Below are positions 6,494-11,947 of a stretch of 25,171 bases of DNA, in pieces (the first letter of the stretch is position 1; every line of letters starts with the position of its first letter). The notes beneath the pieces are model-generated. The model was not told the DNA's origin, made no database searches, and saw only the letters and a program-made list of their open reading frames with translations. The translations under genes and the position numbers were made by a program. Source of the DNA: Tychonema litorale BBK16 (GTDB taxonomy: Bacteria; Cyanobacteriota; Cyanobacteriia; Cyanobacteriales; Microcoleaceae). The stretch spans positions 11,048 to 36,218 of the forward strand of contig NZ_JAKJHX010000048.1 in NCBI RefSeq assembly GCF_021648855.1, in the 5' to 3' direction.

Positions 6494-7399
6494 ATGCCCT
6501 CATCTAATTCAAAAACTACAATCCAAAATCCCAAATTGACCAATTTGTCAGAAATTGCTGAATTGGTTTTCCTGGCTGCATCTGGGGTGGGATTAGCTGC
6601 TAGTTTGGTTTTCCAGCAGAGCATTTATGCCCAAGTGCCGATCGCCATTTCGCTGCTATTGAATTTTGTGAATCGCCAAAAGTTGCACCGACAACTCAGA
6701 ACAACTACAGCCTCCACGTTCGATCGCCTAAATCAACAAAGCGCAACGACCACAAATGCGATCGAGCAATTACAAATTACCGTAAAATCTTTAGACCAAA
6801 CCGTCCCCCAAACCACTCCCGAAAATCTCAATGTTCAGTCAGGAGAAAACGTACACTCTCTAATTTCAGCCGTCGAAAATATCCGTCAACGGCTCATAAT
6901 TCTAGAAAAAACCATGAAAATGAATCAAAGCGAGATTGAGCTGACGAGCCGCCAATTCAAGCAGCGTCCAGAGTTAGCACAAATCGAAACTTTGACAACA
7001 ATCATGATTGACCTACAGCAGTTTGTCAACGAACTACCACAGTGGGGAAGTTTGCAACAACGCCAACTAACAGAACTTCAGCAAAAAGTAGAAAATGCTT
7101 TGAGTGAAGTATCTCAAGAAATTGCTACTATTCCTAACCGAGTTCAAGAAGCTCTAGGCGATCGCGCCGAAATCAACCAAACTTCGGGTTCGGCTTTGAA
7201 TACCCAGATTACTAAAAATCAAAATGAAAAAATTCGACAGAAGCATCCCAGAGCTTATGTCAAATGGAGTCCAGAAGAAGATAACAAGTTGAAAAATGAA
7301 TATGCTAGCGGTAAACAAATTAGTGAATTAGCCAAACAATTTCAGAGACAATCTAGTGCCATTCGTTTGCGATTGCAAAAATTAGGATTAATTCAATAA
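6494..7399 (+). CDS. Hypothetical protein: membrane anchor, coiled coil, Myb/SANT-like HTH
   Basis: The 301-residue protein has a hydrophobic region at about 18-55 (LVFLAASGVGLAASLVF, then VPIAISLLLNFV) that could form one or two spans. A long Gln/Glu-rich coiled-coil stretch covers about 65-230. A short C-terminal domain (about 245-301) reads VKWSPEEDNKLKNEY, ISELAKQF and SAIRLRLQKLGL, which is the pattern of Myb/SANT-like helix-turn-helix domains in cyanobacterial proteins. I infer a membrane-tethered DNA- or protein-binding factor; no function is known to me. It starts 50 bp after mgtE and may be read with it. A tandem-repeat array begins right after its stop codon. Confidence 0.75.
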   Translation: MPSSNSKTTIQNPKLTNLSEIAELVFLAASGVGLAASLVFQQSIYAQVPIAISLLLNFVNRQKLHRQLRTTTASTFDRLNQQSATTTNAIEQLQITVKSLDQTVPQTTPENLNVQSGENVHSLISAVENIRQRLIILEKTMKMNQSEIELTSRQFKQRPELAQIETLTTIMIDLQQFVNELPQWGSLQQRQLTELQQKVENALSEVSQEIATIPNRVQEALGDRAEINQTSGSALNTQITKNQNEKIRQKHPRAYVKWSPEEDNKLKNEYASGKQISELAKQFQRQSSAIRLRLQKLGLIQ

Positions 7400-7400
7400 T

Positions 7401-7435
7401 GGGAATTGGGAATTGGGAATTGGGAATTGGGAATT
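7401..7435. repeat. ATTGGGA tandem repeat array, left border of the accessory island
   Basis: Five units of gggaatt run directly into GGAGTTTAGAC, the tip of an insertion-sequence end. The same array type resumes at 10026, immediately after the opposite IS end. This looks like one array split by insertion. Confidence 0.85.
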
Positions 7436-7452
7436 GGAGTTTAGACTAAGCA

Positions 7453-7586
7453 AGTCAAAAAGTGCGATCGCCCAAAGACTGGCAAACGTCCATACAAGAA
7501 CGGCAATGGTCGCTGGCGATCAGCTATGAGGCTCAACCATAAGAGCGGTACCAGCGACCGTTGACGTTCTCTTTGAGGTTGCGGAT
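7453..7586 (+). other. Unassigned remnant between two IS left ends
   Basis: This 134-bp stretch joins an IS tip on each side. In the frame entering from 7448 it is open to a TGA at 7562-7564 and encodes KKCDRPKTGKRPYKNGNGRW and further basic residues. It could be the end of a lost gene, such as the toxin expected before the immunity-like gene, or a different transposase C-terminus. I cannot assign it. Confidence 0.3.
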
Positions 7587-7701
7587 TTGGAGTTTAGACT
7601 AAGCACAAATTGGTATCGGTCAAGGATATAGTACGATCGCACTGATATCTGAAAGTAGTGGCAGTTGGGCATTGCCGTTAAGACACGAACGTATAACCAG
7701 T
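7587..7701 (+). mobile_element. 115-bp fragment of the IS left end
   Basis: It matches 8973-9087 at all but one of 115 positions (T at 7648 against C at 9034). It carries the left inverted repeat joined to the same interior codons of the transposase, so it shares the internal deletion of the larger copy. It stops abruptly 31 bp before the immunity-like gene. Confidence 0.85.
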
Positions 7702-7732
7702 GACGTTTCCCTAATATCAAGGAGTAAATTTT

Positions 7733-8266
7733 ATGAAGGTATATTATCCAAAACCTGATGTTAATAATTATGATACAATTTTGGCACTAAATGAAGAGGA
7801 TGAAATCCTTCTACTGCATTTTCTGGGAGACCTTCATTGGTATGAGGTTCCCGAAGTTTGGCAGCCCATTCCTGCTGAAGTTTATAGTAAAGGAAAACCT
7901 GGTGATTTCCCAGCTATTGTAGGATTTCATTTGACATTAAGCGAAAGAGCCTTGAGGATTCTACAGCCAATTATGGGTGAAAGTGTGGAATTATTGCCAG
8001 TAGTATGTACCACTGGCGAGCAGTATTTTGCAATCAGAGTATTAGATGTGGTAGACTGCCTGGATTATTCACGGGCCTTAGTGCGGAGATATCCGAATAG
8101 CGACCGTGTGATGGTAATAGATTCTTTTGCTTTTAAAGACGGGTGTATAAGTGATAGAAATATTTTTAGACTTCCTGAATTAAATCGAGCGCTCGTTTCA
8201 CAAGCTTTTAAGGATTGCGTTGAAAATAATGGCTTAGAGGGTCTAATATTCAAACAAGTTACTTGA
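7733..8266 (+). CDS. Imm11/DUF1629-like immunity protein
   Basis: The 177-residue soluble protein resembles the Imm11 (DUF1629) family. It has an N-terminal MKVYYPKPDV, a central GDFPAIVGFHLTLSERALR, then VELLPVVC, YFAIRVLDVVDCLDYSRA, and a C-terminal FRLPELNRALVSQAFKDCVE with GLIF. In that family, members neutralise polymorphic toxins and normally lie just behind the toxin gene. Here an IS fragment lies upstream and no toxin is seen. AAGGAG at 7719-7724, 8 nt before the ATG, is a strong ribosome site and suggests the gene was once the second cistron of a transcript. By eye it is more AT-rich than its neighbours. Family assignment is from memory of the pattern; the cognate toxin is unknown. 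Confidence 0.65.
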   Translation: MKVYYPKPDVNNYDTILALNEEDEILLLHFLGDLHWYEVPEVWQPIPAEVYSKGKPGDFPAIVGFHLTLSERALRILQPIMGESVELLPVVCTTGEQYFAIRVLDVVDCLDYSRALVRRYPNSDRVMVIDSFAFKDGCISDRNIFRLPELNRALVSQAFKDCVENNGLEGLIFKQVT

Positions 8267-8313
8267 GTCGTGGCTGATTTCCACTCGGGCTACCACTAAT
8301 GGATGGTGAAAAA

Positions 8314-8940
8314 ATGCAGCTCAAATTTTTTGATTTTAGTTTTTTAGAAACAGAACTGGAATTCATACCTTCTTTTCATACACTCGCCTTTGCAGCTTCT
8401 ATTTGCGAAAGGTTACTTCCAAACTACAACGCATTCTCAAAGAACGAAAATTTTGGCAATTTTTATGTTCTGAGGCAAGCATTGGATGAAATTTGGCAAT
8501 TTCTACAAAACAATTCAGTAGATAGAACCAGATTTTCTCAATTAATATATGATTGCGACAGCGATCTAATAATTCCCCACGCAGATGACTTTGGTGCTGG
8601 ATATGCTTTAGAAGCGCAGGAAGCAGCTTTTGCCTTGTGCAATACTCTCGAAGCTTGTCTTAATCCAACACCGGAAGCTATTCTAAAAGTAGCTGAGCAC
8701 GCTACAAATACGATTGATGCCTTTATCAATTTCGATGAAACTTTCAGCCTACTGCAATCGCAAGATATGACAAAATATAAGCAGGCAATTGCTAGCCACC
8801 CCCTTGCAGTTCGAGAAATGGCAAAACAAACAGAGGATTTACGACGATTAAAAGAGATAGAGATTTTAGATCGAGAAATTTTGGGGTGGCTGCGTACTTC
8901 TTCTTACAATGGTGGTCGAAGTTTAATTGATTTATCATGA
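8314..8940 (+). CDS. DUF416 (YjaG-like) protein, possible second immunity protein
   Basis: The 208-residue protein matches the DUF416 pattern: FHTLAFAASICERLLPNYNAF near the start, then FGNFYVLRQALDEIWQFL, a central acidic turn, and AGYALEAQEAAFALCNTLEA. The fold is all-helical and soluble. E. coli YjaG is the known relative; its function is not established, but relatives are found near polymorphic-toxin immunity genes. I prefer ATG 8314 (MQLKFFDFSFLE) because homologues begin this way; the ATG at 8299 would add five residues. It follows the Imm11-like gene by 47 bp, so the two probably form one transcript. The IS begins 34 bp after its stop. Confidence 0.65.
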   Translation: MQLKFFDFSFLETELEFIPSFHTLAFAASICERLLPNYNAFSKNENFGNFYVLRQALDEIWQFLQNNSVDRTRFSQLIYDCDSDLIIPHADDFGAGYALEAQEAAFALCNTLEACLNPTPEAILKVAEHATNTIDAFINFDETFSLLQSQDMTKYKQAIASHPLAVREMAKQTEDLRRLKEIEILDREILGWLRTSSYNGGRSLIDLS

Positions 8941-8974
8941 GTCGTCATTTTTTTTTACTCGATACTTTAGAATT

Positions 8975-10025
8975 GGAGTTTAGACTAAGCACAAATTGGT
9001 ATCGGTCAAGGATATAGTACGATCGCACTGATACCTGAAAGTAGTGGCAGTTGGGCATTGCCGTTAAGACACGAACGTATAACCAGTTGGGACAACCCGA
9101 TTGGTAAAGGCGCTCAACAATTGGCACAAGTCTGTGAATATCTTCAGCATAGACTGATCGCTTTATTTGACAGCGAATATGGGTGTGCACCTCTGGTGAA
9201 AGCCACCGCTGCGGTCGCTGCTGATAAACTAATGCGTATTCGTTCCAATCGTTGCTTATGGTCAGCACCCCCAGCCTATAGTGGTAGAGGACGGCCCAAA
9301 ATTCACGGTCAACAGTTTAGACTCAACGACTCTCAAAGCTGGTGGTCACCAGAACAAACTCTGGAATCTGTGGACCCCAAACTCGGAAAAATCCGGTTAA
9401 GAAAATGGGATGACTTGCATTTTCGAGGTAGTCCCAAACATCCAATGACTCTGATTTTAGTCGAACGTTTAGAAACTGTAACGGGTCGATTAAACAGTCA
9501 ACCTTTATGGTTAGTGTGGGTGGGTCTCCAAATGCCATCTCTGGCTGAAATTTGGCAACTATATCTGCGCCGTTTTGCTCTGGAACATTGGTATCGGTTA
9601 GCAAAACAAACTTTACATTGGACTGTGCCGAAGTTGAGTACCCCAGAACAGTGCGAACGATGGAGCGATTTGATGCCTTTGCTAACTTGGCAATTATGGT
9701 TAGCTAAAGATGTCGTCACAGAAATTCGTCTTCCCTGGCAAAAGTCTCTGACTGAATTGACGCCGGGAAGGGTTGTACAATCAATGCTTCCACTTTTAAT
9801 CAAGATTGGAAGTCCGGCTGTTTCTCCCAAACGGCGAGGAAATTCAGATGGATGGCAAACGGGGAAACCTCGTACTCGAAGATGTCGCTATCAATAGGTC
9901 AAAAAGGGTAAAGGTCGGTTCCAAAACTCGTCAAAATCCATTAATTAACCTTGTGAGTTCTCTCTAAATTCGCCACAATTTTCACTCAGCGTTAGCTGAG
10001 TAAATTTGTGCTTAGTCTAAACTCC
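8975..10025 (+). mobile_element. Internally deleted insertion sequence with intact ends
   Basis: The ends are perfect inverted repeats of 23 bp (8975-8997 and 10003-10025; outer part ggagtttagactaag), or 27 bp if the flanking AATT is counted. AATT on both sides may be a 4-bp target duplication, as in IS701-like elements. The element is about 1.05 kb and encodes only the latter part of a DDE transposase, so it cannot move itself. A perfect 7-bp-stem hairpin (9984-10001, loop gtta) lies beside the right end. Intact ends mean it might still be moved by a full-length relative elsewhere. Confidence 0.85.
8989..9948 (+). pseudogene. DDE transposase, N-terminus deleted, early stop near the C-terminus
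   Basis: The frame starts right after a TAA inside the left inverted repeat and reads IGIGQGYSTIALIPESSGSW and ALPLRHERITSWDNPIGKGA. It continues with LIALFDSEYGCAPL (an acidic catalytic position), YSGRGRPKIHGQQF, and LRRFALEHWYRLAKQTLHW (the catalytic Glu region). This order is that of the IS701-like/NF041680 cyanobacterial transposases. Homologues have about 100 or more residues before this point, including the first catalytic Asp, which is missing here. TAG at 9895-9897 interrupts the C-terminus; beyond it the frame continues as VKKGKGRFQNSSKSIN to a TAA at 9946-9948, as in intact relatives. A shortened product from TTG at 9058 to 9897 (279 residues) is possible but should be inactive. Confidence 0.8.
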
Positions 10026-10136
10026 AATTGGGAATTGGGAATTGGGAATTGGGAATTGGGAATTGGGCATCGGGCATCGGGAATTGGGAATTGGGCATTA
10101 GCACAAGCTAATTCGCCATTCCCCATTCGCCATTCC
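10026..10136. repeat. ATTGGGA/ATCGGGC tandem repeat array, right border of the island
   Basis: About five gggaatt units, two gggcatc units and then more gggaatt units begin directly at the IS right end. They are followed by an inverted stretch (attcgccattcccc). A second short repeat, based on cagtcaa, lies at about 10249-10269. Confidence 0.85.
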
Positions 10137-10272: not shown

Positions 10273-10845
10273 CTAAAAATCTTGTGGCAACAAAGAACTT
10301 AAACGTTCCAACAAAGGATCGGATTCCCGACGAGGAGAAACCTCAACATCATCCGCTACATTCTCATTCGCCACATTCTCATTCGCCACATTCTCATCTG
10401 CTACAGACTCAGACTTAATCGCATTAGGCTCTACTACTTTGGCAACTTGAACAAAAGAAACTTGAGAAAACTGACTATTCACACTCCCCTGCAACTGCGA
10501 CAACTGCGCGCTGAGTTGATTTAGGTTGTGTTCCAGTCCTTTCAAACGGCTTAATTCCTCAGTAGAAACATTGTGCTCGAACTCACCAAATTTGACCGTA
10601 AGTTCAGCAATACGCTGTTCCAATCGCTGAAAACTGAGCGTAGAAGCCGCAGACTCAGACACAGATGCAGACCCAGACTCAGAAACAGACAAAAACTGCC
10701 ACAAAGCTTGCTTGCAGAGATTACTAAAAGTCTGATACTTCGTCAAAGTCAGCTCTTTTTCAATAGCAGCCAACAACGTCTGATCCGCAGCATCTTCGGT
10801 AAATGCCACCGAGAAATTCGCCTTATTTTTTGCCCACAATGCCAT
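10273..10845 (-). CDS. ParR-like partner of the ParM actin
   Basis: The 190-residue protein follows the ParM-like gene by 19 bp on the same strand. The N-terminus (FSVAFTEDAADQTLLAAIE, then YQTFSNLCKQALWQFL) has the strand plus two-helix layout of a ribbon-helix-helix or ParR-type DNA-binding domain. A central coiled coil (about 70-130; LEQRIAELTVKF, GLEHNLNQLSAQLSQLQ) should make it oligomeric. The acidic tail contains three five-residue repeats of the type A(D/N)ENV, and the protein ends LLERLSSLLPQDF, which could be the peptide that binds the actin filament, as the ParR C-terminus does in R1. The ParR role is inferred from position and layout, not from clear sequence identity. AAGG stands 10 nt before the ATG. 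Confidence 0.6.
   Translation of the reverse strand: MALWAKNKANFSVAFTEDAADQTLLAAIEKELTLTKYQTFSNLCKQALWQFLSVSESGSASVSESAASTLSFQRLEQRIAELTVKFGEFEHNVSTEELSRLKGLEHNLNQLSAQLSQLQGSVNSQFSQVSFVQVAKVVEPNAIKSESVADENVANENVANENVADDVEVSPRRESDPLLERLSSLLPQDF
10354..10398. repeat. Three 15-bp tandem repeats in the ParR-like gene
   Basis: The unit cgc(t/c)acattctcatt occurs three times without gaps and encodes A(D/N)ENV on the minus strand. It marks a low-complexity linker that can vary in length without frameshift. Confidence 0.85.
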
Positions 10846-10864
10846 AGGTTCAAGCCTTAATGCG

Positions 10865-11947
10865 TTACTTAATCGTGGCTAGCTGAGCCTCAGCATAGAT
10901 ATACTGTCCCAAAGCATTTGCTTTCCGAGAAGGCTGAGCCAAGTGAGCCTTGAGATTAGCTTCCTTCAGCAAAGGTTGCAGCACTTCCCAGAAAAACTCA
11001 CCGCCTCCACCAGTCAGAACCACATCCGTCACTCGTTCTGGTAGCCACTGTAGCAAACGTTCGGACAGTTCATTCGCGAAACTCTCCCGCAAATCCTTAA
11101 TAATCGGATCTAAATCAGTTGGCTTCGCAGCTCCTCTAGGACGGTAGAAGCGCTGACCTTCCGGCTTGTTAACCGCTTCGAGCAAAGATAGAGACTGAGC
11201 ATCAGCTCCTGGAATCTTAGACGCGACTTGTTCGTAGAACTTGTTCATCGCGAAAGAATCACTCTTAGAAGCAGCCCGCGCAAACCGGAAACGATCGACC
11301 ATCAACAAATCGCTAGTCTGGTGTCCGATATCCACAACTGCCACAGACAGTTCAGGTAACTCCGGTGAAAACTCTTTGTTGTCTTGAGCTTCGCACCAAA
11401 TCAGGCTGCCGAAGCCTTCCGGCATCACCCAAACATGGCTGATATTAATCTCGACGCGCTCGCCTCGGTAAACCAGAAGGTGTGGAGAGCGAAGTTGGCT
11501 GACTATTTCTTCCTTTTCCTTCTCAAACTGATCCTGAGAATAAAACGGCAAACCTAGCACAACGGCTATATCACCTTTCATCTGGAAATATCCAGCACAC
11601 GAAAAAACCTTAACTAAAGCATCCACTACTTTAGACTGGTCAGCACCGCCAAGATTAGCGCCAAAATCCGCTGCCAGTTGGCCTATAGCGTAACCCTTGC
11701 CCTGGTACTCCAGCCACATATCCAACAAAGGGTCTGTTGCCTTCGACTCAAAACTGCCGCCCCGCACCTTTTCCACTGGCATAGTAGCCACGTTGGCAGG
11801 GATAAAAATAACACCATTGGGGTTGCGACTCACGCAAGCTTTAGTTGCGGTTCGACCCAAATCAGCACTAATGATCGATTTATGAGAACCAATCTTAGTC
11901 TGTTGCGTCAGCATAGCCGAATTAGGAACAAGCTGTCTAGTTGTCAT
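10865..11947 (-). CDS. parM: ParM/StbA-like actin ATPase
   Basis: The 360-residue protein belongs to the ParM/StbA actin-like family, which polymerises with ATP to push DNA copies apart. Visible motifs are phosphate 1 (SIISADLGRTATK, about 24-36), phosphate 2 (VAVVDIGHQTSDLL) and the adenosine motif (DVVLTGGGGEFFWE), all apparently intact. It is soluble. ATG 11947 is taken as the start; ATG 11914 is an alternative, and neither has a clear Shine-Dalgarno. The ParR-like gene follows by 19 bp, so they form an operon. Relatives are found on cyanobacterial plasmids and chromosomes; here the neighbours (ftsH2, and aspS and cobI further out) point to the chromosome, so a role other than plasmid partition is possible. 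Confidence 0.88.
   Translation of the reverse strand: MTTRQLVPNSAMLTQQTKIGSHKSIISADLGRTATKACVSRNPNGVIFIPANVATMPVEKVRGGSFESKATDPLLDMWLEYQGKGYAIGQLAADFGANLGGADQSKVVDALVKVFSCAGYFQMKGDIAVVLGLPFYSQDQFEKEKEEIVSQLRSPHLLVYRGERVEINISHVWVMPEGFGSLIWCEAQDNKEFSPELPELSVAVVDIGHQTSDLLMVDRFRFARAASKSDSFAMNKFYEQVASKIPGADAQSLSLLEAVNKPEGQRFYRPRGAAKPTDLDPIIKDLRESFANELSERLLQWLPERVTDVVLTGGGGEFFWEVLQPLLKEANLKAHLAQPSRKANALGQYIYAEAQLATIK

Follow-up and report, generated by a model that had tools for sequence, protein, structure and literature searches.

The locus and the outer ends of the island

The window, the whole analysed stretch of 25,171 nucleotides from Tychonema litorale BBK16, belongs to contig C48 of a draft genome of 5.27 Mb (G000; 226 contigs, 99.92% complete). 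Between a gene for a Myb-like protein and fcmC, it carries an island of two genes enclosed by ends of an insertion sequence (IS), and an ATTGGGA array is found on both sides of the island. The features of the locus are as follows.

6494..7399 (+): gene for a Myb-like protein, the left syntenic neighbour; weak Myb match under the curated cut-off, homologue in 21 of 21 relative loci
7400..7433 (+): left part of the array; its last 7 bp (7427-7433, TTGGGAA) are read as target duplication
7434..7586 (+): true left end of the resident IS, upstream of the transposase gene, with 97% identity to positions 1-153 of the copy at locus L046
7587..7701 (+): M1, a chimeric end in which 25 bp of the inverted right tip adjoin internal IS sequence, from about parent position 605
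7733..8266 (+): Imm11-family (DUF1629) gene, 177 aa; Pfam PF07791, E 1.5e-10, 41.2 bits against a cut-off of 22.1
8299..8940 (+): DUF416 (YjaG-like) gene, 213 aa; Pfam PF04222, E 1.1e-32, 113.7 bits against a cut-off of 23.7
8973..10027 (+): M2, an IS deletion derivative of 1,055 bp with two right-type tips as boundaries
9058..9897 (+): remnant of an NF041680-type transposase; profile positions 139-433 of 439, 346.3 bits against a cut-off of 440
10028..10098 (+): right part of the array; its first 7 bp (10028-10034, TTGGGAA) are read as target duplication
10273..10845 (-): fcmC, the right syntenic neighbour; NCBIfam FcmC, 150.6 bits against a cut-off of 90
10865-11947: fcmB, following fcmC; NCBIfam FcmB, 650.9 bits against a cut-off of 300

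The fcm genes are described in the accessible part of PMC12645912 as an actin-like cell-morphology system of filamentous cyanobacteria. The island directly adjoins fcmC/fcmB (10273-11947), and the cargo genes are convergent to fcmC.

The earlier note, made from the letters of the window, had placed IS tips at 7436 and 10025, flanked by AATT and by the array on both sides, and these positions are exact. Copies of GGAGTTTAGACTAAGC occupy 7436-7451 (+) and 10025-10010 (-), with AATT directly before each. With the conserved outer TT/AA, the IS end becomes TTGGAGTTTAGACTAAGC (18 bp) and the element spans 7434-10027 (2.59 kb). The 18-bp end begins at 7434, its inverted partner finishes at 10027, and TTGGGAA flanks both. 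About 0.00015 copies of this 18-mer are expected in the own genome by chance, and 7 have been observed, 4 of them in the island; the reversed control gave 0. In a duplication test within the window, the outer pair 7434/10027 matches over 7 bp, and both inner tips fail with the right flank. Because the period of the array and the length of the duplication are both 7, this outer match is weaker than it looks, and the matching flanks alone could be a coincidence of phase, about 1 in 7. Full-length relatives identify 7434 as the true left end and 10027 as the true right end of a single type of IS. Since these relatives fix the two ends, a single IS insertion most likely divided the array, in agreement with the earlier suggestion that one array had been split.

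It is improbable that at least two IS copies inserted separately in the array and around the genes, that deletions fused them and that the flank match arose by coincidence. The period-7 array makes phase agreement cheap, and IS tips are common, being present in 20 of 29 genomes of the genus. However, 7434 and 10027 are complementary, correctly oriented ends of one IS type, and the inner junction at 7587, which falls exactly at a tip, is suggestive of transposition and not of a random deletion.

Twenty-one relative loci have been compared. The Myb-like gene and fcmC are found together, 180-902 bp apart, in the 16 scorable ones, and the other five are cut or rearranged. Neither cargo genes nor IS ends lie between the two neighbours in any of the 16, and the IS tip (up to 2 mismatches) is absent from all 21. 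Three to four perfect TTGGGAA units directly follow the Myb stop in 3 of the 16 (G023, G017 and G001), and G010 has a degenerate version. The earlier note had proposed to look for an empty site with an uninterrupted array; the site is empty in all 16, and these three have perfect array units there. In G006 and G008, which are among the five non-scorable loci, the contig stops in or just past such an array. Two arrangements that the earlier note had set against its own proposal have not been seen. No scorable relative (0 of 16) holds both genes here without IS ends, and the outer left tip does not come from an unrelated, longer IS; it belongs to the same IS family and its flank matches that of the right end. 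Apart from short matches in three genomes, at other sites, the cargo DNA is missing from the other 28 genomes of the genus.

The parent IS and the nested interior

Full-length copies of the parent IS exist in genomes of the same genus; G012 has one of 1,625 bp (L041), and G021 has copies of 1,614 bp (L045, L125, L128 and L129). The parent IS is 1.61-1.63 kb long and has an NF041680-type transposase, the gene of which begins at about position 228-250; its target duplications are usually 7 bp. At 14 outer pairs measured outside the window, 8 of which are from G021 and cover part of the copies of that genome, the duplication is 7 bp in 8, 6 bp in 1 and 8 bp in 1, and it is absent in 4. TTGGGAA is found in none of the ten duplications measured elsewhere (8 of the 10 from G021), and there is no sign of a special site, so the earlier idea of low-complexity repeats as a landing site gains no support.

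The intact L045 transposase scores 558.7 bits against NF041680, above the cut-off of 440. It shows a distant similarity to IS701 transposases, with 71.1 bits against NF049999 (cut-off 170) and 22.6 bits against a second IS701 model (cut-off 150), and is below both cut-offs. IS701 elements make 4-bp target duplications according to the accessible part of PMC2266710. Because the duplications of the parent IS are mostly 7 bp, it is not filed under IS701.

The transposase of the island is broken. A genome-wide profile search extends the remnant match to positions 115-438, a stretch interrupted by two stops, and detects no NF041680 copy over the cut-off, that is, no intact transposase, anywhere in the own genome. 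The IS is dead and its outer ends are good, just as the earlier note had described an immobile IS derivative. Other remnants in the own genome are G000:C27:824-1607 (L039), with an internal deletion and truncated on the right, a short right tip at C106:8724 (L040), and a left tip at a contig end, G000:C120:38-55 (L130).

Two further tips, at 7587 and 8973, lie inside the island and go beyond the earlier description. They have been ruled out as ordinary left ends. In each, a 25-bp inverted copy of the right end, without mismatches, is joined at a TT to internal IS sequence, and the tip at 8973 runs on into the right half of the IS. Compared with the closest copy, L046, after subtraction of the unrelated insertion that L046 itself carries, positions 8996-10027 correspond to parent position 606 to the end, and parent bases 154-605 (about 450 bp) are missing from the island. 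In their place stand the chimeric tip at 7587, then 7702-8972 with the two genes, and then the chimeric tip at 8973. A direct repeat of 115 bp, the copies of which differ by 1 mismatch, starts at the two tips, and the imm11-like and DUF416 genes are flanked by these chimeric ends. Among 61 genomes of the family, the chimera is present only at 7587 and 8973 (up to 3 mismatches allowed), and the junction has 0 matches in genome_contigs, a collection that may omit the own genome of the window. Because the junction occurs in these two places and nowhere else, M1 and M2 most likely are copies that descend from one event. The cargo sits between two copies of one IS derivative. As read from these junctions, the island is not one simple element; it is both nested and rearranged inside, where the two chimeric tips lie.

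It is highly improbable that the 226-contig draft assembly produced this picture by wrongly joining IS fragments and low-complexity arrays. Such sequences do lie at contig ends, with IS tips or arrays in this position in the own genome (C120) and in G013, G006 and G008. However, both flanks of the island are syntenic with relatives, and the chimeric junction has been found at this locus only, so that no repeat copy elsewhere in the assembly could have served as a false bridge to it.

Double tips are also present in the single-contig genome G021. At L126, a second left tip comes immediately after parent bases 1-400, with one right end in the stretch read and the outer duplication TTCCGTC. At L127, an inner right end is followed by parent bases 1253-1625, with the outer duplication TAACAA. 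The nested inner pairs of L126 and L127 have no duplication. Both loci may be read as IS-in-IS insertions in which one expected end was lost and the outer duplication was kept, and the window matches this pattern, with cargo in the inner layer.

Cargo carriage as a general habit of the IS gains no support. All 9 ORFs scanned in four interrupted copies have transposase-type matches, 6 of the 9 above the curated cut-off and 3 weak, below it, with some overlapping ORFs outside the scan. L042 and L046 are interrupted copies as well, and their ORFs appear transposase-like by eye.

The Imm11 and DUF416 genes

The G+C content is 38.6% in the imm11-like gene and 37.7% in the DUF416 gene, against 44.3% in the window. 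The earlier note had described both genes as AT-rich and resembling immunity families. The AT-richness holds and Imm11 is a named immunity family, and for DUF416 an immunity role is only plausible. Imm11 pairs with AHH, HNH and SHH toxins, as stated in the accessible text of PMC3482391; the AHH pairing also appears in that of PMC12077181. Counting the own genome, 5 of the 291 genomes of the order and 2 of the 61 genomes of the family have an Imm11 relative; for DUF416, the number is 22 of the 291.

One locus, in G141 (L114 7168-15297), contains an RHS-repeat protein, DUF416, an AHH domain ORF, Imm11 and SUKH-1 in a row, the Imm11 homologue coming directly after the AHH domain ORF. The Imm11 homologue of G216 follows a cadherin-domain ORF, and no toxin domain was matched there. 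The Imm11 protein of the island probably confers immunity to an AHH-type nuclease. The G141 row also hints that some DUF416 proteins are immunity proteins. Judged from this locus alone, the island DUF416 is possibly an immunity gene, as a weak candidate. DUF416 is not mentioned in the accessible part of Zhang et al. 2012 (PMC3482391). A search for AHH (PF14412), the one toxin family covered, gave no match in the own genome; in the genus, 6 of 29 genomes have one. Because both families are found in the RHS/AHH toxin locus of G141, the imm11-DUF416 pair of the island is probably orphan immunity, that is, toxin-less.

The own genome has a second DUF416 at locus L119, with 49% identity to that of the island. 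The immunity reading is less certain for DUF416 than for Imm11: in four loci, L119 (by Pfam) and L117, L118 and L123 (by eye), a gene beside DUF416 resembles an endonuclease III-type repair gene. L118, in G211, has two DUF416 genes, with an RHS-repeat protein and a DUF4241 gene on the other side, and favours neither the immunity nor the repair reading clearly. In G095 (L116 7961-8010), two near-copies of the IS tip lie about 270 bp upstream of a DUF416 gene. These inverted tips form a palindrome some 50 bp long, near-copies of which occur elsewhere in G095. Five more similar inverted tip pairs in this genome probably make them a tiny IS-derived repeat family.

PADLOC gave no match. In the PDB, nothing was found for Imm11, and DUF416 matched two structures, both of unknown function. 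No relative of Imm11 was confirmed in genome_contigs or viral_contigs, and matches on plasmids are distant, with 26% identity for Imm11 and at most 33% for DUF416. There is no promoter-like site upstream of imm11 within 7434-7732; the promoter scan overall yielded 3 sites, against a mean of 5.0 in shuffled sequences.

In protein database clusters, Microcoleus sp. F6_B4 has relatives of both genes, with 84% and 92% identity. Since the longest contig of both clusters is 111,562 bases, the Imm11/DUF416 pair is probably linked there. Nothing on this strain was found in the open-access literature. The own Imm11 cluster of the window comprises 3 sequences from 2 contigs, the longest of 108,792 bases, which points to a close copy of the island Imm11 gene in another assembly, outside the genomes searched.

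Insertion history and known systems

The explanation that we consider best, with slightly better than even confidence, is that the IS landed once and that a derived, cargo-bearing unit then entered the resident IS and partly collapsed. In the first step, which is well supported, an NF041680-type IS of about 1.6 kb most likely inserted once into the array in the interval between the Myb-like gene and fcmC, with its outer ends at 7434 and 10027. In the second step, the anatomy suggests that an IS-derived unit entered the resident IS tip-first after base 153 and brought the imm11-DUF416 pair. The ends of this unit would be M1 and M2 as two copies of the deletion derivative with right-type tips. 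Such an arrangement, with cargo between direct copies of M, is the expected residue of a composite transposon or of a cointegrate with an M-carrying donor molecule. In the third step, the remainder of the resident copy may have been lost by homologous recombination of M2 with the corresponding right portion of that copy, and a deletion may have trimmed M1 to 115 bp just upstream of imm11. The genomes searched hold no donor copy of M or the cargo unit, so that the second and third steps are drawn from the anatomy. In the last step, which is partly shown, the transposase was broken, and since no intact one was found in the genome, the locus would now be fixed. The genes were most likely kept as orphan immunity, Imm11 acting against AHH-type nuclease toxins of neighbouring strains.

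The earlier note had considered that the island may have moved as a 2.6-kb unit. The nested structure would then have been built elsewhere, and the whole of 7434-10027, cargo included, would have transposed into the array with a transposase supplied in trans. The outer ends are intact and matched by a 7-bp duplication, relatives show empty sites, relatives of both genes are probably linked in Microcoleus sp. F6_B4, and another assembly has a close Imm11 copy on a contig of 108,792 bases, all of which would fit such a transfer. However, neither the own genome nor the relatives covered by the search showed a second copy of the 2.59-kb unit or of the cargo unit, or an M donor, the own genome yielded no intact transposase, and the interior with its two chimeric tips requires the same internal events plus one extra transposition. 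We consider this history possible, though unlikely. The absence of a second copy from the genomes searched tips the balance towards arrival of the cargo in place, rather than transposition of the whole 2.59-kb unit together.

A composite transposon or cointegrate carries its cargo between two IS copies in the same orientation. Likewise, the cargo of the island lies between same-orientation copies of one IS derivative. However, the island does not qualify as a composite transposon: its left copy M1 is only 115 bp, its outer frame is another IS copy, and there is no duplication around the inner unit, 7587-10027. Mobile insertion cassettes are, like the island, non-autonomous IS derivatives the ends of which enclose passenger genes, and MIC231 is reportedly one of them. 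A further example is the qnrS2 cassette of pAC3, with passenger genes between IS ends (accessible part of PMC5444012). The island similarly has IS ends around passenger genes and no working transposase. As to transposition as a unit, its duplication is present, though weak within a 7-bp array, and no second copy has been seen. In contrast to such cassettes, the island has a nested double-tip interior, a dead transposase remnant and an immunity-type pair as cargo. IS231-type elements of the IS4 family have passenger genes between the left end and the transposase gene, as described in the accessible text of PMC2266710, and in the island, too, the extra genes come after the left end and before the transposase part. 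However, the transposase of the island is of another family and is broken, and IS tips enclose the extra part itself.

Acquired interbacterial defence (AID) clusters hold orphan immunity genes, toxin-less and associated with mobile DNA (accessible part of PMC10470768), and the island, the pair of which is probably toxin-less, resembles them in both respects; it differs in having two genes only, a cyanobacterial host and an IS frame. Polyimmunity loci, for which the accessible part of Zhang et al. 2012 (PMC3482391) lists Imm11 as a member, share with the island same-strand immunity genes at short spacing with no toxin between them. The island differs in having only two genes, with DUF416 unmentioned in that part of the source. 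Both passenger genes between IS ends and mobile orphan immunity genes are thus already known (accessible parts of PMC5444012, PMC2266710 and PMC10470768). No report that combines IS ends with an orphan immunity pair was found in the open-access literature, in a survey short of a full review.

It is distinctly unlikely, in our estimate, that 7434-10027 acts as a mobile insertion cassette by which orphan immunity genes spread among filamentous cyanobacteria with a transposase in trans, as a minimal, IS-based form of acquired interbacterial defence. If true, such a pair of immunity genes between the two ends of a single small IS would represent a much simpler route of acquisition. The two genes of the island may shield the cell from toxins of its neighbours, and protection by the pair would be directly testable if island-bearing and island-free strains coexist. 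IS-in-IS insertion followed by recombination can mask the delivery of cargo, since the outer ends stay clean and the second event is recorded inside. An IS that inserts into its own copies leaves double-tip structures, which are a trap when IS-bounded islands are read by their tips.
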